A stretch of 64,000 bases of DNA from Planctomycetota bacterium (GTDB taxonomy: Bacteria; Planctomycetota; PLA2; JAEUHO01), in the NCBI GenBank assembly GCA_029259775.1, contig JAJDEN010000045.1, positions 124,001-188,000 on the forward strand, written 5' to 3'. Positions 3,322 to 22,707 of the stretch are shown piece by piece. A program made the translations under genes and the position numbers. Position 1 is the stretch's first letter, and each line of letters starts with the position of its first letter. Below the pieces are notes generated by a model. That model did no database searches. It was not told where the DNA came from and was given only the letters and a program-made list of their open reading frames with translations.

Positions 3322-4884
3322 ATGAGACGACGCACGGGAGCGGCCGCGCTGATTGATGGACGTAGCCGTGCGCTGCTCCTGCCCTTCGTCGTCCTCCTTG
3401 CCCTGGTCGTTGGGGCGACGGTCGCTGCGGCGATGTTCGCACCCCGTGCGTTCGCGGAGGAGCCGCCTCCCGCAGCGCCGCCGGAGGCAGGGGCTGAGGA
3501 CGCGCCCGAGGATGCCGCCGAGGATGCTAGCAAGGACGGCGCCAAGGACGCCGCCAAGGACGGCGCCAAGGACGGCGCCAAGGACGCGCCCAAGGAGCCG
3601 GATCAGCGTCCCCTTCTCACCCGGCTCTGGGAGGACAAGGGCGTCTTCGTCGACGACCCGAAGGGACCCCAGGTCCGCCTCTTCCTCCGCGGCTCCGCCG
3701 ACCAGTTCAGCGTGCACGACGACGACTACACGCGGCCGCTCGTGGACACGGGACGCGTCGACGCGCGAGGCCAGCCGATCTTCGCGCGCGGTGGTCGCCT
3801 CGGCAACACGCGCAGTGGCGAGGCCCACCCACGCATCGAGGGCGGCGTCGAGGGTCGGATCAAGCCCGACGTGCCCTTCACCGTCGGCTTCGAGGCGACG
3901 CCGGACACCTACGGGATCCGCGACGTGTTCCTCGACACCAACTTGCTGGCGCTCATGACCTGCAACGACTGCACCCCGACGCTGCGGATCGGGAACTTCA
4001 TCGAGCCCATCGGGCTCGAGCAGAACACCCCCGGCTGGCACCGGACGTTCCTGACCCGCTCCGCGGCTTCCGAGACGTTCGGCTTCGGTCACAGCCTCGG
4101 CGTGATGGCCCACCAAGGGCTCTACGGCGGCCGGCTGGGCTACGCCCTCGGCTACTTCTACAGCCCCGAAGGCAAGAACGGTGCGTTCAGCAACCGGCAG
4201 ACCGATCAGACGGTCGTGCGCGACGGCCATGGCCCGAGCGGCCGGCTCTGGTGGATGCCGTCCATCAATCCGAACCGGCTCTGCCACCGCCTGATGCTGG
4301 CTGCCTCCGTGGCCGTCCGCACGGACATGTCCGGCATCCAGCTTCGTTCGCGACCCGAGTCGTACACGTTCGGCTACGCGATCGATACCGACTTCAGCAC
4401 CGACGGGGGGGGCGTCCCGCTGCTCGACGACGCGGACTCAGCCGTCTTCATGGGTGTCGAGGCCTCGTGGGTGCGTGGTCGCTGGTTTGCCCAGGCCGAA
4501 TACTTCGCGAGCCGCATCAACTCGACACGCGGCGGCGACCCGACGTTCCATGGCGGCTACGTCATGGCAGGTCTGTGGCTGACCGGCGAGTGCCGGCGTC
4601 TGGCCTGCGGAGCGCTGCATCCCTCCCGCATCTGCCGGCCCGTGGACCCGTGCGAGGATCGCTGCGCGCGGGGCGGGCTCGAACTTGCCGCCCGCTTCAC
4701 GCATGTGGACCTCAATGACGGCAACATCGCCGGGGGCACCATGAACAACCTCGCGCTCGAGCTGAACTGGTGGCTGCGCGACAGCGGCCGCCTGATGTTC
4801 AGCTACATCCGATCGCGGGTCGACGACGGCACGGTCGATGAACCGATCCACGTCCTGCAGATGAGCGTGCAGTTCGGGCTCTAG
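3322..4884 (+). CDS. Phosphate-selective porin O/P-type outer-membrane channel
   Basis: A 520-residue protein. An Arg-rich n-region and hydrophobic segment (about 17-45) ending near AFAEE look like a long signal peptide. Next come a Pro/Ala/Asp/Lys linker with a five-fold Lys-Asp-Gly-Ala repeat (about 71-90) and a beta-rich body. Porin O/P (PF07396-like) features include GGVEGRIKPD, FLDTNLLAL, LRIGNFIEPIGLEQ, the YALGYFYSP region, and a C-terminus ending in Phe-Gly-Leu after alternating hydrophobic residues, typical of outer-membrane barrels. Extra cysteine pairs (CNDC and a cluster near residues 435-455) are unusual for a porin. It lies 118 nt behind the multiheme cytochrome and may form the outer-membrane end of that system, or may be a separate anion porin. 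Its TAG overlaps the stop of the convergent glycosyltransferase (shared CTAG). Confidence 0.85.
   Translation: MRRRTGAAALIDGRSRALLLPFVVLLALVVGATVAAAMFAPRAFAEEPPPAAPPEAGAEDAPEDAAEDASKDGAKDAAKDGAKDGAKDAPKEPDQRPLLTRLWEDKGVFVDDPKGPQVRLFLRGSADQFSVHDDDYTRPLVDTGRVDARGQPIFARGGRLGNTRSGEAHPRIEGGVEGRIKPDVPFTVGFEATPDTYGIRDVFLDTNLLALMTCNDCTPTLRIGNFIEPIGLEQNTPGWHRTFLTRSAASETFGFGHSLGVMAHQGLYGGRLGYALGYFYSPEGKNGAFSNRQTDQTVVRDGHGPSGRLWWMPSINPNRLCHRLMLAASVAVRTDMSGIQLRSRPESYTFGYAIDTDFSTDGGGVPLLDDADSAVFMGVEASWVRGRWFAQAEYFASRINSTRGGDPTFHGGYVMAGLWLTGECRRLACGALHPSRICRPVDPCEDRCARGGLELAARFTHVDLNDGNIAGGTMNNLALELNWWLRDSGRLMFSYIRSRVDDGTVDEPIHVLQMSVQFGL
3532..3591 (+). repeat. Five tandem 12-bp units inside the porin gene
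   Basis: Units of the form AAGGACGGCGCC start at 3532, 3544, 3556, 3568 and 3580; the second and the last differ slightly. They encode a Lys-Asp-Gly/Ala-Ala periplasmic linker just after the signal segment. Copy number could vary between strains because changes keep the frame. Confidence 0.9.
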
Positions 4885-7707: not shown

Positions 7708-8430
7708 TCAGGAACCCTCCTCGAGGGGTGCGTCGCCCGTCGCCGCTTCCGCCGCCTTCAGGCGGCCAGCGGCCTTGCGGCCAACGAAGAACAGCAGAAC
7801 GAACACGGCCAGGACCGCGCCGATGAGCAGCCACGGGATCTCGCCCGAGCTGATGGCTTCCAATACCGCGTCGGTCCCGGCTACGTAGAGGAACGTGCCG
7901 GGCAGCATGCAGATCCAGGAAACGATCACGTAGCGCCCGAAGCCGATGCGCGTCAGCCCGAAGGCGTAGTTCACGATGTTGAAGGGGAACAGGGGTACGA
8001 GGCGGATGATCGCGACGATCAGGGTCCCGTGCGAGGCCGTCAGGCGATCGATCTTCGCGAGCCCGGGCTTCTTCGACAGCCAACCCGCGACGTGGTCGCG
8101 CAGAACGTAGCGCGCGATGAGGAAGGCCAGCGCGGCGCCCAGCACCGAGGCGATGCTCACGTAGACCGTGCCCCACACGGCGCCGAATAGGCCGCCGGCG
8201 AGGATCGTGGGCACGGAGCCCGGCACCATCAGCACGGTCGCGAGTACGTAGAGCCCGATGAACGCCACGGGACCCCAGGCGCCGAGGCTCTCGATCCATG
8301 CGCGTGCCGCGCCGAGCCCGCTTTCGATGTCCACGAGCCGAGCCGCAACGAACAAGCCGATCAGGACGATGCCGAACAGCGCAGGCTTGATCCAGGCCTT
8401 GCCCTGCTTGGTCTCGGCCGCGTCGCTCAT
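7708..8430 (-). CDS. TVP38/TMEM64 (DedA-like, VTT domain) membrane protein
   Basis: A 240-residue integral membrane protein with about five or six hydrophobic segments, starting at 17-33. Family marks are the glycine-rich GGLFGAVWGTVYV stretch, the re-entrant-loop arginine region RLVPLFPFNIVNYAFGLT, and an FxxxPGTFLYV-like segment. Members of this superfamily move lipids or small solutes across the inner membrane, and several are linked to metal handling, but no substrate can be read from the sequence. It stands between arsS and the flavoprotein gene on the same strand and is very likely co-transcribed. The C-terminus is an Ala/Glu-rich soluble tail. Confidence 0.9.
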   Translation of the reverse strand: MSDAAETKQGKAWIKPALFGIVLIGLFVAARLVDIESGLGAARAWIESLGAWGPVAFIGLYVLATVLMVPGSVPTILAGGLFGAVWGTVYVSIASVLGAALAFLIARYVLRDHVAGWLSKKPGLAKIDRLTASHGTLIVAIIRLVPLFPFNIVNYAFGLTRIGFGRYVIVSWICMLPGTFLYVAGTDAVLEAISSGEIPWLLIGAVLAVFVLLFFVGRKAAGRLKAAEAATGDAPLEEGS

Positions 8431-12755: not shown

Positions 12756-14051
12756 GTGGATGCCATGACGTACCAACGAGTGATCGCTCTCCTGATGGTG
12801 CTCTTCGGAGCTGCGCTGCTTGCGGTGCGCGCGCCCGCGGAGGAGGACAAGCCCCAGAAGCCCAAGATGCTGAAGGGCGCGAAGAAGTTCGCCGAGGGCC
12901 ACCACCCGTGCATTGCGCCGGATGCAACGCAGTTCGCGTTCGTGCGTTTCACCACGAACGCCAAGGAACGTGACTATCGCGGCAACCCCGTCCCGATTCC
13001 TCGACTCCACATCCAGGCCTTGAAGAAGAAGAAGGCCTCCAAGCGCAAGGTCCGCGGCATCCCGCAGGGGTGGGTCGGGATCGATGCCGTCGGCGTGAAT
13101 CCTGGCTACGTCGTGGCGGCGAAGACGGGCTCGCGTCGCAAGGACTGCGCTGTGCTTCCCAAGGACCTGGAGGTGCGTCGCGTAGCCTGGTCGCGTGACG
13201 GCCAGAAGCTCGTCTACATCGCGGACAACATGTTCTATGGGACCAACAAGGACATCAAGCCGTCGGCGGGGGTCGAGCGGACGCTCTACGTCGTCGACGC
13301 GGCCGGTGCGGTAACGAAGCTCGACCTCGGCCATTCGATCGTGACCGACGGTTGCTCGATCATGTCGTGGTCGCCCGATGGCAAGCGGATCGCCTTCAGT
13401 CTCGAGTTCTTCCTCGACGGCAACCTGCCCGTGCGCCGAATCGGCGTCGTCGACGTCGCGACGGGCAAGACCACGATGATCGCCAAGGGCAACGCGCGCG
13501 GACGGCAGGACTGGATTCTGGATGGCGGGTGCGCGGGCGGCCGCATGGGCTCCGACGGCTTCCGGGAGAACACCCCCGGCGTGTCACGCCGGGGCAGCCC
13601 GAGTTGCTCTTGCGGCACGCACGAGCTCTGGTCCGGCACGGGCAAGCACTTCGCGTTCACAGTGCGCAGCGCCGACGACACCTGGGACGCCTACGTGGCC
13701 ACGGCCGACGGATCCGACACGTTCCGGCTGACGGACGACGGGCACATGAAGTGGTCCCCGAGCCTCGACGCGGAGGGGCGGCGGATCGCCTACTGGGTTG
13801 CCGAGGGCGGCAAGGCCAAGACGGCGCCGGCCACGTGCCGCCTCGAGGTTCGCGACCTCTACACCGGCGAGGTCTTCGTCATGCCCGCGCTCAAGGGCGG
13901 CGGTGTCGGCAGCGCGATCGCCTGGGTCCCCGGCAAGCCGGAGCTGCTCTTCGAGTGGATCAACGACGAGGGCGGCTCGATCTGGCATCAGAAGCTGCCC
14001 AAGCCGAAGAAGGTCGCTGCGGACGCACCCATCCGCACGGCGGGCGACTGA
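12756..14051 (+). CDS. Exported WD40/PD40-like beta-propeller protein
   Basis: A 431-residue protein with a signal peptide (about 8-30, LLMVLFGAALLAVRAPAEE). Repeating TolB/PD40-type blades follow, marked by W-S-x-DG-K/Q phrases: VAWSRDGQKLVYIAD, MSWSPDGKRIAF, WSPSLDAEGRRIAYW and IAWVPGKPELLF. The region 255-290 is Cys- and Gly-rich. Such proteins bind other proteins or scaffold complexes in the periplasm; no catalytic motif is visible. ATG 12756 and ATG 12765 are both possible starts. It is followed 80 nt later by the cyclophilin gene on the same strand. Confidence 0.75.
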   Translation: MDAMTYQRVIALLMVLFGAALLAVRAPAEEDKPQKPKMLKGAKKFAEGHHPCIAPDATQFAFVRFTTNAKERDYRGNPVPIPRLHIQALKKKKASKRKVRGIPQGWVGIDAVGVNPGYVVAAKTGSRRKDCAVLPKDLEVRRVAWSRDGQKLVYIADNMFYGTNKDIKPSAGVERTLYVVDAAGAVTKLDLGHSIVTDGCSIMSWSPDGKRIAFSLEFFLDGNLPVRRIGVVDVATGKTTMIAKGNARGRQDWILDGGCAGGRMGSDGFRENTPGVSRRGSPSCSCGTHELWSGTGKHFAFTVRSADDTWDAYVATADGSDTFRLTDDGHMKWSPSLDAEGRRIAYWVAEGGKAKTAPATCRLEVRDLYTGEVFVMPALKGGGVGSAIAWVPGKPELLFEWINDEGGSIWHQKLPKPKKVAADAPIRTAGD

Positions 14052-16208: not shown

Positions 16209-16745
16209 CTAGCTGGTGACCTCGCGCGAGGCGAAGCCCGCCTTCTTCAAGGCCTTCACGATCTTCGTGGTCGTCGCGCGCTTGATCTCGAAGGTGATCG
16301 TCGCGCGCTTGGAGGTCTTGTTGACCTTCACCTTGCGCATGCCCGTCACCGTGCGGATCGCGGCGTCCGCCTTCTTCTCGCAGCCACCGCACGCGAGGCC
16401 GGTGACGGCTAGCTGCACGGTCTTGGTCGGGATGACCCACGCGCCATAGCCCTGCTTCTTGACGGCGGCAACCAGGTCCGCGTCCTTGCTCGTGGCCTTC
16501 AGGGTGACCGTCGCTTCGCTGCTGTCGGAGTTGAGCTTCACATCTTGGACGCCCTGGACGGACTTGAGCGCCGCGGCCACACGGGCCGGACAGCTCACTC
16601 AGGTCACGCCCGAGAGGCCGACGTACACCTCGCGCGGCGGAGCGACCTTCTTCTTCGCCGGCGCGCGGGAGCTGCCCTTGGCGAGCGCCGCAGGCGCCAG
16701 CAGGAGGAGGGCGGCGGCGGCGAGCAGGGTCGTCAGGCGAAGCAT
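16209..16745 (-). CDS. Exported two-domain HMA metal-binding selenoprotein (UxxC + CxxC)
   Basis: Read with the in-frame UGA at 16601-16599 as selenocysteine, the protein has 178 residues. It has a signal peptide (1-22, ending ALAKG), a Lys/Pro-rich spacer, a first HMA domain starting GLSGVT-U49-V-S-C52-PARV, and a second with GLAC119-GGC122. U49 falls exactly on the first metal-binding cysteine of the GMTCxxC motif, and HMA-like secondary structure continues without a break after the UGA. This makes a frameshift or true stop unlikely. ATG 16745 has GGGAG 9 nt upstream; ATG 16787 would put 14 charged residues before the signal peptide. MerP-like proteins bind Hg(II), Cu(I) or related soft metals in the periplasm. 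A hairpin fit for a SECIS follows the UGA, and a strong terminator follows the gene. Annotated as an ordinary gene it would appear broken or start at 16598. Confidence 0.85.
16566..16596 (-). promoter_or_regulatory. Candidate bacterial SECIS element of the HMA gene
   Basis: Directly after the UGA the minus-strand RNA can form a lower stem GAGC/GCTC (16596-16593 with 16569-16566), an internal loop, an upper stem CGGCC/GGCCG (16588-16584 with 16578-16574), and the loop CGUGU. The second loop base is G, as in known bacterial SECIS loops. The loop starts 15 nt after the UGA. Confidence 0.6.
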
Positions 16746-16969
16746 GCGGCGGTTCTCCCGAGCCGCGGCGGTGCGGTCTCGACTCAAAGAGAGCTCGCAC
16801 GTCGTCCGAATTGCGGCGCCCGACGACGGTGGAGGGGAAAGGTCCCGGCCCGGCGGTCCTGGGAGGCAGAAAGTCCCTCCGCGAAACGCCCGCGGCGCCC
16901 GGCGCGTCGCCTGTACGCAATTGGACCCTGCCGCCGGTCGTCTTCTCCAGCGGTTCCGTGGAGCGCCCC

Positions 16970-17524
16970 ATGACCCGCACCCCTAGCGACGCCGAGCTCG
17001 TCGCTCAGGCCTTGGCCGGATCGACGGCTGCCTTCGACGAGCTCGTCGCGCGCTACTGGAACGGGGCCGTGGGCATGGCGTGGCAGCGCACGCGCCGCTG
17101 GGCCGATGCCGAGGACGCGGCGCAAGAGGCGTTCGTTCTCGCGTACCACAAGCTCCAAAGCCTACGCAGCCCCGAGCGGTTCGGCGGCTGGTTGTTCACG
17201 ATCGTTCACCGTGCGTGCATCGAGAACGCGCGTCGCAAGAAGCGCCGCCCGATGCCGCTCTCCGATGTCGAAGTCATGTCCGACGCCAACCACGAAACAT
17301 CCGACGCCTCGCCGAACATCGATGTCCGCCGCGAGATCATGGAGGCCATCCAGGCGCTCCCCGAGCGCTACCGCCCGGTCGTGGTCCTGCGCTACGGCCA
17401 AGGCATGGCGGTGAAGGACATCGGCATGTCCCTCGGCGTGCCCGTGGGCACGGTGGTCAGCCAGATCTTCCGCGCGAACCGAATCCTGCGTACCCAACTC
17501 AAGCACCTGGTGGGGGAACGATGA
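16970..17524 (+). CDS. ECF-type RNA polymerase sigma factor
   Basis: A 184-residue sigma-70 family protein. Region 2 (about 20-90) has FDELVARYWNGAV, DAEDAAQEAFVLAY and RFGGWLFTIVHRACIENARR. Region 4 (about 120-175) has LPERYRPVVVLRYGQGMAVKDIGMSLGVPVGTVVSQIFRAN. No extra C-terminal domain is seen. It directs RNA polymerase to a small regulon, typically including its own operon. ATG 16970 fits the family length; the open frame upstream has no sigma-like sequence. Its TGA overlaps the ATG of the next gene (17521), so the two are translationally coupled, the classical sigma/anti-sigma arrangement. The inducing signal is unknown. Confidence 0.93.
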   Translation: MTRTPSDAELVAQALAGSTAAFDELVARYWNGAVGMAWQRTRRWADAEDAAQEAFVLAYHKLQSLRSPERFGGWLFTIVHRACIENARRKKRRPMPLSDVEVMSDANHETSDASPNIDVRREIMEAIQALPERYRPVVVLRYGQGMAVKDIGMSLGVPVGTVVSQIFRANRILRTQLKHLVGER

Positions 17525-19224
17525 GCAGCTCCCGACATCCCGACAACGCGCACAACAACCCGCACGACAACGACCGCGAGTTCGAGCTGATCGACCGGCA
17601 CCTGGCCGGCATTCTCGAACGCGACGAAGAGGCCCAGCTCGAAGAGCTGATCCGCACGTCACCCGCCTGGGCCACGCGCTACCGCGAAGCCGAGGAACTG
17701 GCGCGACTCCTCCACGAAGGCGTTGGTGGTTACGGTGCGCCCGCGTCCGCGCAGCGCGCCATCCGCGATCGCATCCGTGCGGCGGCGTCCGTGCCCCTGC
17801 GGCGTGCGTTCGGCTCGCGCCGGCAGCTGCTTGTTGCGGCGGGTGTGCTCTGCGCGCTGGCCGGCGCGTACCTGTTCTGGCCCAAGGCAGGCACCGAGTA
17901 CTTGGAGGCCGTCTACGCCGCCGAGCCGCTCCCGCTGGCCGACCTGGCTCGATCCTCCGACGTCCTGCTCATCGGCCGCGCGGAAGACGTCGACGGCAGC
18001 GTGCGCTTCCGCCTCGACAAGACGGTCTACGGCGACGCCGAGCGCCACGCCCTAGCTCTTCCGGCTTCCGTCGCTGCCGGTCAGGTGATCGCCCTCTTCG
18101 GAAGCTACCGCGAGGGCATGATCGAGATCATCGATGGCGATCGCGGGGTCGTGCATCTGGACGGCGCCCAGCGGTGGGAGGGGCGCATCTTCCAGCCTGC
18201 GGTCTCGCGTCGGCGTGTCGAGCGCAGTCTGGTCCTCCGGACGCAGGAGCGGGCGCTCGCCGATCTCCAGCGCTTCCTGGCCTCCGACGCCTCCCTGATC
18301 GCGATCGATGCCGTCGAGGGGCTGCAGTACTCGGCGCCGATCACCGCCCGCTTCCTGGGCCGCTTCGAGCCCCACGCGATACGCGCGACCCTCATGCGCC
18401 TCATCATGGCGCGGGAGAAGCACCCCGACGCACGCAACGCCGGCGCCGAGGCGCTCGTCGAAGCCGATCCGCTCAATACCTGCCGCATGCTGCTGGCGAA
18501 CATCGTGAAGACGGCTAGCGTCGATCTCCACGCCGAGAGCGAAGAGGGGTTCGTCGTGCTGAGCTGCCTCCGGCTCATGCAGCGCCGGGGCGGAGCCGAC
18601 CTCGTTGAGAACCTGGCCAAGCTGGCCGCCCGCATGCACTGCCCGTCGCTCAAGCGCGCCGCCGAGGCGGCGCTCCTCGCCGTCGAGGGCAAGGGGCCGC
18701 GCGTGCCGGGTCCCCGCATTGCGCCCACGCCCATTCGTCTCATCGTGGACGGGCGCGAGGGCGTCATCATCCCCGGCTGCCAAGGCAAGGCGGACCGGAC
18801 TCTCGTTGTCTTCCGCGGCCAGGCCGGGCTCGGAGACCTCAATCCATTGGTCAATCTCGCTCTCGGCCGGGGTCTATGCGTCGTTGTTCTACCGCGCGAC
18901 GTCATGGATGCACCCGGGTGGTTGCGCGAGGCTCGGAGCACGCGGCTCTTGACCGAGGGCGAGGTCACCTACCTGGGCCTTGGCCGCGGTTCTCTGGATG
19001 CCGTGCGCGCGGCGCGCCTGCAACGCCCCGGGCGGCTGCTGCTTGTCGGGCGCTTGGCCGAGGCGCTCGAGCAGGTGCCAGCGGGTCTGGCCGCGCACGC
19101 GTGGCCCGTGGACGGAGCGCGCTCCGCGAGCGGGGAGGTCGAGCTCCACCCGGTCGAAGATTCATCGCTCGAAGAACTCCTCGCCGATCTGGGACTGTGG
19201 AAGCGGGTGCTAGCTGCCGACTAG
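17521..19224 (+). CDS. Large membrane protein with anti-sigma-like N-terminus
   Basis: A 567-residue protein overlapping the ECF sigma gene by 4 nt. The first about 90 residues (ELIDRHLAGILERDEEAQLEELIRTSPAW) resemble the cytoplasmic anti-sigma domain of FecR/RsiW-like proteins but lack the HxxxCxxC zinc motif. One membrane segment follows (about 105-122, LLVAAGVLCALAGAYLFW). The rest (about 125-567) would be periplasmic, with an Ala/Leu/Arg-rich helical region (about 240-400) suggesting HEAT-like repeats. The last 150 residues (IRLIVDGREGVIIPG, VVVLPRDVMD, LLLVGRLAEALEQV) resemble an alpha/beta-hydrolase- or Rossmann-like fold without a clear catalytic motif. It probably holds the sigma factor inactive until a periplasmic signal is sensed. 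The sensor domain is not recognised. Confidence 0.7.
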   Translation: MSSSRHPDNAHNNPHDNDREFELIDRHLAGILERDEEAQLEELIRTSPAWATRYREAEELARLLHEGVGGYGAPASAQRAIRDRIRAAASVPLRRAFGSRRQLLVAAGVLCALAGAYLFWPKAGTEYLEAVYAAEPLPLADLARSSDVLLIGRAEDVDGSVRFRLDKTVYGDAERHALALPASVAAGQVIALFGSYREGMIEIIDGDRGVVHLDGAQRWEGRIFQPAVSRRRVERSLVLRTQERALADLQRFLASDASLIAIDAVEGLQYSAPITARFLGRFEPHAIRATLMRLIMAREKHPDARNAGAEALVEADPLNTCRMLLANIVKTASVDLHAESEEGFVVLSCLRLMQRRGGADLVENLAKLAARMHCPSLKRAAEAALLAVEGKGPRVPGPRIAPTPIRLIVDGREGVIIPGCQGKADRTLVVFRGQAGLGDLNPLVNLALGRGLCVVVLPRDVMDAPGWLREARSTRLLTEGEVTYLGLGRGSLDAVRAARLQRPGRLLLVGRLAEALEQVPAGLAAHAWPVDGARSASGEVELHPVEDSSLEELLADLGLWKRVLAAD

Positions 19225-19279: not shown

Positions 19280-19299
19280 CACGTTCCGAGGAGGTAGAG

Positions 19300-19383
19300 A
19301 TGCGTTTGATTCTCAGCCTGGCCATGTTGCTCGCGACCGCGGCGATCCTTACGGGTTGCTGAAGCGGTGGCGGCTGCGGGTAG
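19300..19383 (+). CDS. Tiny lipoprotein, possible selenopeptide (UGA after lipobox Cys)
   Basis: ATG 19300 has a near-ideal ribosome-binding site, GAGGAGG (19288-19294), 5 nt upstream. Nineteen codons give a textbook lipoprotein signal: Arg2, a hydrophobic core, then Leu-Thr-Gly-Cys20. The next codon is TGA (19360-19362), followed by Ser-Gly-Gly-Gly-Cys-Gly and TAG. If UGA stops translation, the product ends on the lipid-modified cysteine and is useless as a lipoprotein. If UGA is selenocysteine, the mature product is the eight-residue lipopeptide Cys-Sec-Ser-Gly-Gly-Gly-Cys-Gly. A perfect 6-bp hairpin with loop AGUUC begins 13 nt after the UGA, like those of the two better-supported selenoprotein genes nearby. 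A terminator follows. No known family is recognised. The gene is fairly convincing; the Sec reading is a hypothesis. Confidence 0.55.
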
Positions 19384-19392
19384 TTCACCCGC
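19376..19392 (+). promoter_or_regulatory. Candidate SECIS hairpin of the tiny lipopeptide gene
   Basis: GCGGGT (19376-19381) pairs perfectly with ACCCGC (19387-19392) around the loop AGTTC. The loop begins 19 nt after the UGA and has G in second position, close to the AGTTT loop of the SelW gene. Confidence 0.5.
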
Positions 19393-19432: not shown

Positions 19433-19470
19433 TGGGCCACGGGCGGTTCGCTGCTCGTGGCCCACTTTCT
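19433..19470 (+). terminator. Terminator after the tiny lipopeptide gene
   Basis: TGGGCCACG (19433-19441) pairs with CGTGGCCCA (19456-19464) in a 9-bp stem, followed by CTTTCT. It lies between the plus-strand lipopeptide gene and the convergent RND permease gene. The U-tract is modest. Confidence 0.6.
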
Positions 19471-19536: not shown

Positions 19537-22500
19537 CTACGTGGCCTTGCGTCCGACCTCGACGCCAGGGTCGTAGGGCAGTTCCTGGTGCCAGCGCGAG
19601 CCGAACAGCCAGCGGGTGCCCGAGCGCAGGTCTTCGAGGATGAGGTAGAAGACCGGCAGCAGGGCGAGGATCAAGAAGGTCGCGAACGCCAGCCCGAAGA
19701 CGATCGAGACCGCCATGGGGATCAGGAACTGCGCCTGGAAGCTCGTCTCCAGCATGATCGGCGCCAGGCCGACGCAGGTGGTGATCGATGTCAGCAAGAT
19801 CGCGCGCATGCGGCCCTTGGAGGCCGCGACGACCGCATCGGTCAGCGGCAGACCCTCGCGACGCTTGCGGTTGGCCAGGTCCACGAGGATGAGCCCGTCA
19901 TTGACGACGATGCCCGAGAGAGCCACCAGCCCGATCATGCTGAGCAGCGTGAGCGGGAAGCCCATGATGACGTGGCCAATGACGGCGCCGATGATCGCGA
20001 AGGGGATGATGCTCATCACGATGATCGGCTGGACGTAGCTCCGGAAGAGCACGGCGATCGTCGCGAAGATCAGCAGCAGCGCGATCGGGAAGAGGTACTT
20101 CAGCGAGCCCATGGACTCGTTGGTCTCCTTGCGGCGGCCGACGAAGGAGAGCGAGACGCCCTCGAACTCATCTCCGATGCCAACCATCGCCTTGCGGATG
20201 TCCTCCGTGACCTGCCCCGAGTTCGCTTGCTCGTCATCGACCTGCGCCGTGATCGTCACCGCGCGCTGGCCATCCACACGCTGGATGGAGGCATAACCGC
20301 GCTCCGTGTCGAAGGTCGCCGCTTCGCTGAGCGGCACGCGGCCGCCCGAAGGCAGCGCGATGCGCAGCCGGCCGAGGTCGTCGAGGGTGCGCCGTTCCGA
20401 GGCCGGCAGCATGACGCGTACGGTGACCTCGTCCTCCCCGATCTGGAGATCCTGGACCTCGAAGCCAAAGAGCGCGTGGCGTAGCTGCAGGGCAACTTCG
20501 CTCGTGGTGATGCCTAGCAGGCGCGCGTCGTCTCTCAGGCGCATGCGCGCCTCGAGCTTGCCCAGCTCGAGGTCGTCGAAGAGTTCCTCGATGCCCGTGT
20601 AGCCGGCGATGTGCTCGCGAACATGGGTGACCGCCTTCTGGAGCACGCCCAGGTCGTCACCGCGCACGCGGACCTGGATGTCGGGTCCACCAGGTCCGCC
20701 GGAGCGGCCTGCGAAGGACAGTCGTCGGACGCCTGGCAGTGTAGCAGCCTCGGCGCGCAGCTCCGTCAGGACGTCCTGCGAACGGCGGAGGCCCTTGGCT
20801 TCGCGTTCGTCGGCGGGAACCATTTCGATCGTGATCTGGCCGACGACGGCGGGGTCGGATGCTGCCTGACGCCCTCGATCGCCGAAGGAGGCGCCAATGA
20901 CGGAGAAGGTCGTGAGGATCTCGGGCTTGGCCCGGGCGAGTTCCTCGACCCGGTTGATGATGCGCTGGGTCTCGCTCTCGGGCGTGCCCGCGGCCATTTC
21001 CAGGTCGGCCGTCAGCGTCTCGGCGTCCGACTCCGGGAGGAACACGAACGGCACGACACCACCCGCGACGAGTCCGCCCATGATGGGGAGCATCGCGAGC
21101 GCGACAGCAGCGGACGCGTAGCGCCAGCGCAGCAGGAAACGCAACTGGACCTCGAGGATGTTCGGCAGCGTCTTCTCGAAGAAACGGTGCCGCGCCTCAC
21201 CGAACCGGTGCAGGGCCTTGCCGATGGGCCCGCGCTCGCGTGTGCGCTCGCGCTTGTGCGCCAGATGGCCGGGCAGGATCAGGAATCCTTCCACCAGCGA
21301 CACCGCCAGCGCAGCGATGACGACCTGGGGCAGGACACCCAGGAAGTTGCCCATGTTGCCGTCGATGAAGGCCAGCGGCGCGAACGCGGCGCACGTCGTG
21401 ATGACCGCCGCGATGACCGGTAGGGCCACCTTGTTGGCGCCCTCCTCGGCCGCCTCCCGGGCCGGCATGCCTTCGCGCTGTTTTCGGAAGATGTTCTCTC
21501 CGATGACGATCGCATCATCGACCATCAGGCCGAGCACGACGATGAGGCCGAACAGGCTGATCAGGTTGATCGTGAGGCCGAAGAGCCACATCACGATGAA
21601 CGTGCCCATGAAGGCCACCGTGAGACCGACGGCCACCCACAGGGCGACACGCAACTCCAGGAACAACGCAAGCGCGAGCAACAACAGCAGGAGGCCCGTG
21701 CCCGCGTTGCGCACCAGCAGGTCGAGGCGCCCCTCGATGAAGCGCGAGAGGTCGGTCGTCGTGGCGAGCGCGATGGCGCCCCCGGCCAGCGTCGGCTTGT
21801 CCTTCACGTACTGCTTGACGGCTTCGGCAATCTTGATCGCGTCCTGCTCGGGCGTCTTGAAGATGAAGATCTGGGCCGCGCTCACGCTTTGGAAGCGGCC
21901 CTTCTCGGTCTTGTCCTCGAAGCCTTGGCGCACCTTGGCCACCTGACCGAGGCGGACGTGCGAGCCGTCCGGCTGCGTCAGGATGATCTTCTTCTCGATC
22001 GCCGCGGGCGTGCGGTCCTCACCCATGGTCCGTACACGGACGTTGGCTTCCGCACCCTTGAGCTGGCCGCCGGGGATGTCGCGGTTCAGCGCCGCGAGCG
22101 CCCGGCCGACCTGCTCGAACGTGATGCCGTACTCATCGAGCCGATCCGGCATGATCTCGGCGATGATCTCGCGCTTGCGGAAGCCCGTGATCACGAGCTC
22201 CGTCACGCTCTCGAGCGCCAGCAGGTCATCCTTGGCCCGCAGTACGGCTTCGTGAAGCTGATGCTCGGGTACGTTGCCCGAGAGCACGACGGCGATGACT
22301 GGGATGTTCGGTCGCGCCTCGATGATCTCGGGCTCTTCGGCGCCGTCGGGCAGACTCGGGATGACCTTGTCGATCTCGCCGCGCAGGTCGTTGAGCACGC
22401 GGTCGCGGTCGGCGTCGTCTTCGAGCTCGGCGGTGATGATCGTCAGGCCCTCGAAGACCTTCGAGCGGATCTCTTCGACGTCCGACACGTCTTCGATCTC

Positions 22501-22707
22501 GCGCTCGATGAGACGGGTGACAGAGCGCTCGATCTCCTCCGGCGTCGCGCCCGGGTAGGGCACGGTGATCATGATCTGCTCCGCCTGGGACAGCGGGAAC
22601 ATCTCGCGGATCATCGAGGACCAGGCGATCACGCCGCCGATGAGTACGGCCCACATGGCGAGGTTGACCGCCACCGGGTTGCGGACCGAGAACCGGGGAA
22701 GGTTCAC
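19537..22707 (-). CDS. RND-family efflux permease (AcrB/HAE1-like)
   Basis: A 1056-residue inner-membrane proton-driven pump. A first membrane helix (about 12-30) precedes a large periplasmic porter region, and a second one follows the middle (about 555-860). There are twelve expected helices, including GLIVVLGLMVDDAIVIGEN (the Asp-Asp of the proton relay at about 397) and LSMIGLVALSGIVVNDGLILVDLANR in the second half. The length matches AcrB-type pumps. CusA-type methionine clusters are not obvious, so drug/organic-type export is as likely as metals. Its ATG overlaps the stop of the adaptor gene (22704-22707, ATGA). No outer-membrane TolC-type gene is adjacent. Confidence 0.93.
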   Translation of the reverse strand: MNLPRFSVRNPVAVNLAMWAVLIGGVIAWSSMIREMFPLSQAEQIMITVPYPGATPEEIERSVTRLIEREIEDVSDVEEIRSKVFEGLTIITAELEDDADRDRVLNDLRGEIDKVIPSLPDGAEEPEIIEARPNIPVIAVVLSGNVPEHQLHEAVLRAKDDLLALESVTELVITGFRKREIIAEIMPDRLDEYGITFEQVGRALAALNRDIPGGQLKGAEANVRVRTMGEDRTPAAIEKKIILTQPDGSHVRLGQVAKVRQGFEDKTEKGRFQSVSAAQIFIFKTPEQDAIKIAEAVKQYVKDKPTLAGGAIALATTTDLSRFIEGRLDLLVRNAGTGLLLLLLALALFLELRVALWVAVGLTVAFMGTFIVMWLFGLTINLISLFGLIVVLGLMVDDAIVIGENIFRKQREGMPAREAAEEGANKVALPVIAAVITTCAAFAPLAFIDGNMGNFLGVLPQVVIAALAVSLVEGFLILPGHLAHKRERTRERGPIGKALHRFGEARHRFFEKTLPNILEVQLRFLLRWRYASAAVALAMLPIMGGLVAGGVVPFVFLPESDAETLTADLEMAAGTPESETQRIINRVEELARAKPEILTTFSVIGASFGDRGRQAASDPAVVGQITIEMVPADEREAKGLRRSQDVLTELRAEAATLPGVRRLSFAGRSGGPGGPDIQVRVRGDDLGVLQKAVTHVREHIAGYTGIEELFDDLELGKLEARMRLRDDARLLGITTSEVALQLRHALFGFEVQDLQIGEDEVTVRVMLPASERRTLDDLGRLRIALPSGGRVPLSEAATFDTERGYASIQRVDGQRAVTITAQVDDEQANSGQVTEDIRKAMVGIGDEFEGVSLSFVGRRKETNESMGSLKYLFPIALLLIFATIAVLFRSYVQPIIVMSIIPFAIIGAVIGHVIMGFPLTLLSMIGLVALSGIVVNDGLILVDLANRKRREGLPLTDAVVAASKGRMRAILLTSITTCVGLAPIMLETSFQAQFLIPMAVSIVFGLAFATFLILALLPVFYLILEDLRSGTRWLFGSRWHQELPYDPGVEVGRKAT

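Follow-up and report, generated by a model that had tools for sequence, protein, structure and literature searches.

Cells pay a high price for selenocysteine (Sec), which is known almost exclusively from the reactive sites of folded proteins. Bacterial selenoproteins of the SelB/bSECIS type, for example FdhF of E. coli, have an in-frame UGA, a complete set of SelA, SelB, SelD and tRNA-Sec, and a downstream hairpin with a small, G-containing apical loop within 16-37 nt of the UGA; the AGGUCU loop of E. coli fdhF starts 17 nt after it. The 'star' families UXX-star and KCU-star, which we take to be small proteins with C-terminal Sec, have Sec close to the stop codon. Very short lipoproteins are also known in bacteria, among them LptM and the entericidins, neither of which has Sec.

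The locus described here shares with the SelB/bSECIS selenoproteins (which include SelD of its own genome) the in-frame UGA, the complete machinery and the hairpin, whose loop is AGGU, 19 nt after the UGA, in two species (G001 and G005). With the star families it shares the position of its predicted Sec close to the stop codon. In contrast to SelB/bSECIS selenoproteins, the predicted peptide has only 27 codons, an eight-residue mature part and no protein fold, and its putative SECIS straddles the stop codon. Its mature sequence is unrelated to those of LptM and the entericidins; LptM gave a weak, below-cutoff match (E 0.08) to a Sec-free relative, confined to the signal peptide. The 2026 inventory of 119 prokaryotic selenoprotein families/subfamilies, which stresses thioredoxin-like folds, holds nothing like the peptide, does not describe UXX-star and KCU-star as lipoproteins and lists different Sec motifs for them (PMC13188914). 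No Pfam or NCBIfam family scored above its curated cut-off for the peptide, and a full-text literature search for selenocysteine together with lipobox returned nothing relevant, in line with the preliminary description, which knew of no such family. To our knowledge, such an eight-residue peptide from a 27-codon gene would be far smaller than any known selenoprotein.

The micro-ORF lies on the forward strand of the 64-kb window (the whole stretch of DNA that was analysed), in which the combination of signal peptide, lipobox, single TGA and short ending occurs once. The features of the locus are:

19289..19295, + strand: Shine-Dalgarno sequence AGGAGGT, a strong ribosome-binding site before the ATG at 19300
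19300..19383, + strand: micro-ORF of 27 codons, MRLILSLAMLLATAAILTGC-U-SGGGCG-stop (TGA as U; stop TAG), from the ORF reading and five-species conservation
19300..19356, + strand: predicted lipoprotein signal peptide, its lipobox (LTG before C) suggesting type-II cleavage
19357..19359, + strand: lipobox Cys (TGC), invariant in five species
19360..19362, + strand: in-frame TGA, codon 21, predicted selenocysteine, invariant in five species
19363..19380, + strand: post-TGA codons Ser-Gly-Gly-Gly/Ser-Cys-Gly, 83-100% identical between species
19381-19383, + strand: TAG stop of the micro-ORF
19376..19392, + strand: predicted bacterial SECIS hairpin GCGGGU-AGUUC-ACCCGC, overlapping the last codons and the TAG stop
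19433..19470, + strand: strong hairpin with T-rich tail, a probable terminator, between the micro-ORF and the convergent RND gene
19537..22707, - strand: convergent RND (AcrB-like) efflux permease, the syntenic partner in five species

The codons read ATG CGT TTG ATT CTC AGC CTG GCC ATG TTG CTC GCG ACC GCG GCG ATC CTT ACG GGT TGC TGA AGC GGT GGC GGC TGC GGG TAG. The ribosome-binding site, LTGC signal, TGA, six further codons and TAG given in the preliminary description are all correct to the base, as is its 6-bp hairpin 13 nt after the TGA (GCGGGT 19376-19381, AGTTC, ACCCGC 19387-19392); its terminator corresponds to the stronger hairpin from about 19433, after which come T-rich DNA and then the convergent RND gene. 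The ORF has the marks of a lipoprotein signal, namely an MR start, a hydrophobic stretch and a lipobox of the form [LVI][ASTG][GAS]C. LTGC is invariant in all five orthologs, and each has a GGAG core 9-13 nt 5' of the ATG.

An ORF with TGA at the same codon was found in five of the six genomes, each of a different species, of this uncultured planctomycete genus (the window's own, G000, and G001, G003, G004 and G005), as the preliminary description would predict, with the consensus MR(L/W/Y/F)(I/L)LS(L/I)AMLLATAA(I/L)LTGC-U-SGG(G/S)CG-TAG. In all five the RND gene lies tail-to-tail with the micro-ORF and encodes a protein 71-81% identical to that of the window. The sixth genome (G002, 70% complete) is uninformative, with the peptide region off-contig; absence there was rejected as evidence against conservation because the RND ortholog is cut by the contig end. 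Mean pairwise nucleotide identity between the five species (9-nt windows) lay at 0.17-0.39 before the ATG and at 0.67-0.92 across the signal peptide and TGA (0.92 at the TGA). Successive windows after the TGA gave 0.96, 0.87 and 0.80; conservation stopped at the hairpin (0.27), with 0.22-0.33 beyond it. Neutral DNA is thus randomised, and conservation of the ORF continues past the TGA as far as the TAG and the hairpin.

Across the 20 codons of the signal peptide, 15 third, seven first and two second positions vary among the five species, indicating translation of the peptide under purifying selection. Species pairs are 83-100% identical over the 18 nt that follow the TGA. As a control, the DNA behind the stops of 97 other orthologous ORF pairs, some of them shadow ORFs, has a mean of 39%; several of the few high control values trace to the adaptor gene, in which the stop codon overlaps with the beginning of the RND gene. 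Selenoproteins are recognised by an in-frame UGA with the sequence beyond it conserved in relatives, and this is seen in the five species. It is this conservation, not the hairpin alone, that lifts the micro-ORF above chance; the evidence for Sec decoding comprises five sequences from one genus.

The preliminary description had proposed looking in related genomes for TGA or TGC/TGT at the codon after the lipobox. The former part was borne out by the TGA orthologs; the latter was not, as no ortholog with Cys at the UGA codon, which would make a strict Sec/Cys pair, was found. Cys at +2 is present in larger Cys-rich lipoprotein-like ORFs of the planctomycete family, a distant one in G011 (AGC-C-AGGK-C; same spacing, long tail; E 0.0096) and one in G007 (..LTGCCGCDPCG..); both are resemblances, not orthologs.

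In all five species the hairpin has a stem of 6-7 bp and a loop of 4-5 nt beginning A-G-(G/U) (AGUUC, AGGU or AGUU), 19 nt after the UGA. By itself it folds at -10.4 kcal/mol in the window and at -8.4 to -11.8 across the five species. The published bSECIS model, with a loop of 3-9 nt lying 16-37 nt after the UGA, a G in the first two loop positions, a stem of 4-16 bp and an MFE of at most -7.5 (PMC13188914), describes the hairpin in 5/5 species. All 30 pairs (30/30) are kept over the five species, and two positions differ among them: pair 5, with G-C in two species but C-G in the other three, shows a compensatory change, and pair 1, which is G-U in a single species, a wobble change. The 5'-side change at pair 5 is synonymous (GGG/GGC, Gly), and the partner base lies past the stop codon. 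The covariation that had been suggested as a check was found, and it is supportive rather than proof because it is probably a single evolutionary event. On its own, a bSECIS-like hairpin is not unusual, as DNA this rich in G+C often forms one by chance: hairpins that fit the published constraints and have 6 or more stem pairs lie behind 6.8% of the TGA triplets in the window, and those with a loop spacing of 18-20 nt behind 0.9%. Folding energy with 61-nt context was no better than that of shuffles; the hairpin alone beats most shuffles in all five species.

Alternatively, the UGA may be a true stop that leaves a 20-residue hydrophobic peptide ending in LTGC, the conserved DNA behind it being a terminator or mRNA-stability hairpin. 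Only 3 of the 18 positions after the TGA vary, so codon statistics cannot prove coding there, and rather U-rich DNA follows the hairpin in three of the five species (G001, G003 and G005), in which it could also terminate transcription. However, the hairpin covers only the part from 13 nt on, and the 13-nt spacer is conserved too. The hairpin also has the spacing expected of a SECIS and a G-(G/U) loop, and G000 has a separate, stronger terminator-like hairpin further on. An intact lipobox with nothing beyond its Cys would yield no product, since the mature peptide would be a lone Cys, and this counts for the Sec reading; so do the open-frame Gly/Cys tails of the same kind in Sec-free micro-lipopeptides (see below). 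A true stop is accordingly regarded as improbable.

The genome of the window has SelB (336.7 bits), a tRNA-Sec with anticodon TCA (70.7 bits) and SelA (501.8 bits), which adjoins SelD; the selA-selD gene pair is at G000:C57:29656-32009 (L148, L152). Lack of these genes had been named as grounds for abandoning the Sec reading, and all four are present. SelD of G000 has an in-frame TGA where its own Sec is expected (RLTQYASAGG-U-AAKVDK), and such a TGA was seen in four genomes (G000, G001, G004 and G006, the last from the next genus). From this machinery and the Sec-containing SelD, the lineage very probably decodes UGA as Sec. Above-cut-off SelB matches are present in G001, G002, G003, G005 and G006 as well. 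A complete SelB was not found in the 88%-complete assembly of G004, which has the micro-ORF, SelA and a Sec-containing SelD. FdhA was tried as a control selenoprotein, and no TGA lies inside the Fdh-alpha matches listed; SelD and an HMA protein near the micro-ORF were used as controls instead.

Translation through a UGA with a SECIS depends by nature on selenium supply. A near-cognate tRNA might read through the UGA, or the codon might be a selenium switch that gives the lipopeptide when selenium is available and an inert 20-mer when it is not, so that regulation rather than the selenol would matter. This dependence fits a switch, as does the occurrence of Sec-free micro-lipopeptides in genomes that also encode the Sec lipopeptide. 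The dedicated Sec machinery argues against both variants, and there is no same-strand gene on which leader control could act: the micro-ORF is followed by the terminator-like hairpin and then by the convergent gene. A leader peptide or attenuator was ruled out on the same ground, that no gene lies downstream on that strand. We consider read-through or a switch highly improbable.

The proposal of the preliminary description that the UGA encodes Sec is strongly supported by the conserved TGA orthologs, the Sec machinery and the covarying hairpin. We infer Sec insertion from what can be read directly in the genomes, namely the conserved ORF, UGA and hairpin and the machinery, and on this basis 19300-19383 is very likely to be a genuine micro-selenoprotein gene. 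The ribosome would read codon 21 as Sec by means of SelB, a Sec-tRNA(UCA) and the downstream hairpin as SECIS, which would be unusual in straddling the stop codon. The 27-residue product would be exported by its lipoprotein signal and lipidated on the lipobox Cys, and signal peptidase II would leave acyl-Cys-Sec-Ser-Gly-Gly-(Gly/Ser)-Cys-Gly either on the outer face of the cytoplasmic membrane or at the outer membrane. Given translation, a lipid anchor is very likely. As the first Cys would carry the lipid, the only free reactive side chains would be the Sec selenol and the thiol of the last Cys. Joined by the flexible SGG(G/S) linker, these would probably form a reversible selenenylsulfide ring or a two-ligand soft-metal site, so that the peptide would work as a minimal membrane-tethered selenol/thiol. 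Purely on chemical grounds, a function of the redox or soft-metal class is somewhat favoured.

A second family of micro-lipopeptides, without UGA, was brought up in the same genomes by the peptide search. Its member in G000 has the mature sequence CTSGGCSTCGG (L168, about 8128-8220, - strand); CTGGGCSTCG, CTGGGCAGCGG, CTSGGGCSTCG and CTGGGCSSCGG were found in the other species and in G006, of the neighbouring genus, where a second micro-lipopeptide, CRGGCCG, lies 0.3 kb further on. Members (also L095, L096, L097, L169 and L170) have 29-30 codons and a mature part that is mostly C-TGGG-CxxC-G; with CRGGCCG included, the range is 26-30 codons. Their locus is syntenic throughout the genus and in the next one, behind a gene run that includes citrate synthase and a PilZ-domain gene. 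They resemble the Sec lipopeptide in short size, lipobox signal peptide and short Gly/Ser/Cys tail, but have no UGA, carry a CxxC or CC pair instead of Sec and are encoded elsewhere; at such a length, shared ancestry cannot be proved. Since their tails are of the same style, SGGGCG is likely to be part of a mature peptide, and tiny lipid-anchored thiol peptides are likely to be a theme of this planctomycete family. Short Cys-rich lipoproteins with CCDPC-type repeats, possibly metal-binding, were also observed in the family (L116, L033 and L110).

Directly upstream of the lipopeptide gene, across a 75-bp gap on the same strand, are a gene for an ECF sigma factor and, downstream of that, a gene with a weak anti-sigma match (together 16811-19224, + strand). 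The pair is also present in G005; G001 and G004 have tRNA genes upstream instead. A protein encoded at 16209-16745 (- strand) is a second selenoprotein candidate, a secreted, CopZ/MerP/NF041115-like protein with two heavy-metal-associated (HMA) domains. Its TGA (16599-16601) falls in the first domain, which has GVT-U-VSC in place of GMTCxxC. The same TGA occurs in G005 (L093, codon at 12869), and a conserved hairpin, GGCC-CGUGU-GGCC, lies behind it; this metallochaperone also appears to contain Sec.

As a refinement of the Sec reading, the peptide could serve in heavy-metal handling together with the neighbouring RND efflux system and the candidate Sec-containing metallochaperone. Soft metals are bound well by a Sec/Cys pair, the RND gene neighbours the peptide gene in 5/5 species, and the HMA protein is encoded 3 kb off in G000 and nearby in G005. 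However, the RND gene is convergent and not co-transcribed, which rules out a functional link to the pump through an operon, and it scores better against multidrug than heavy-metal families. In addition, no HMA gene was seen beside the peptide in G001 and G004, where the upstream genes are those for tRNA. Such a role is rather unlikely.

An exact-pattern scan for LxGC-U-xGGxCG gave 37 loci in a 257-Gb genome collection. Four of these have an in-frame signal peptide, and all four are from this genus (Planctomycetota MAGs casp150-mb.218, MO_197.B21, bin_bo_oilr1.015 and OFTM31); the other 33 (Xanthomonas, Micromonospora and others) were rejected as chance matches with no in-frame signal peptide. 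A search of 392 genomes of the phylum returned the five genus members and two places in G247 (LPAC-U-AGGGCG), which were discarded because they lack a signal peptide and have stop codons in frame just upstream. In G006, from the next genus, the syntenic position is taken by a different micro-ORF, MRQVLVIGVVVVAAAFLVFFAGG-TGA-NSPRQAPSAPASSY (L127, about 4700-4815, - strand), with a perfect ribosome-binding site and a SECIS-like hairpin (GGCGCC-GUC-GGCGCC) 14 nt after the TGA. No convincing relatives of this micro-ORF were found, and its TGA may either end translation or encode a further Sec.

The locus is likely to represent a new class of micro-selenoproteins: ribosomally made, eight-residue membrane-anchored selenopeptides with a SECIS spanning the stop codon, within a wider, unannotated group of Cys-rich micro-lipopeptides that would provide the planctomycete envelope with tethered groups for redox or soft-metal chemistry. 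If so, gene finders miss such genes, since a UGA ends their ORFs and the shortest ORFs are thrown out. The peptide is a compact, synthesizable object with which selenol chemistry at membranes can be tested. For these bacteria, the finding would mean that the whole Sec apparatus is spent on an eight-residue lipid-anchored peptide, which would set a new lower size limit, and that no protein fold is needed for Sec to be of use.
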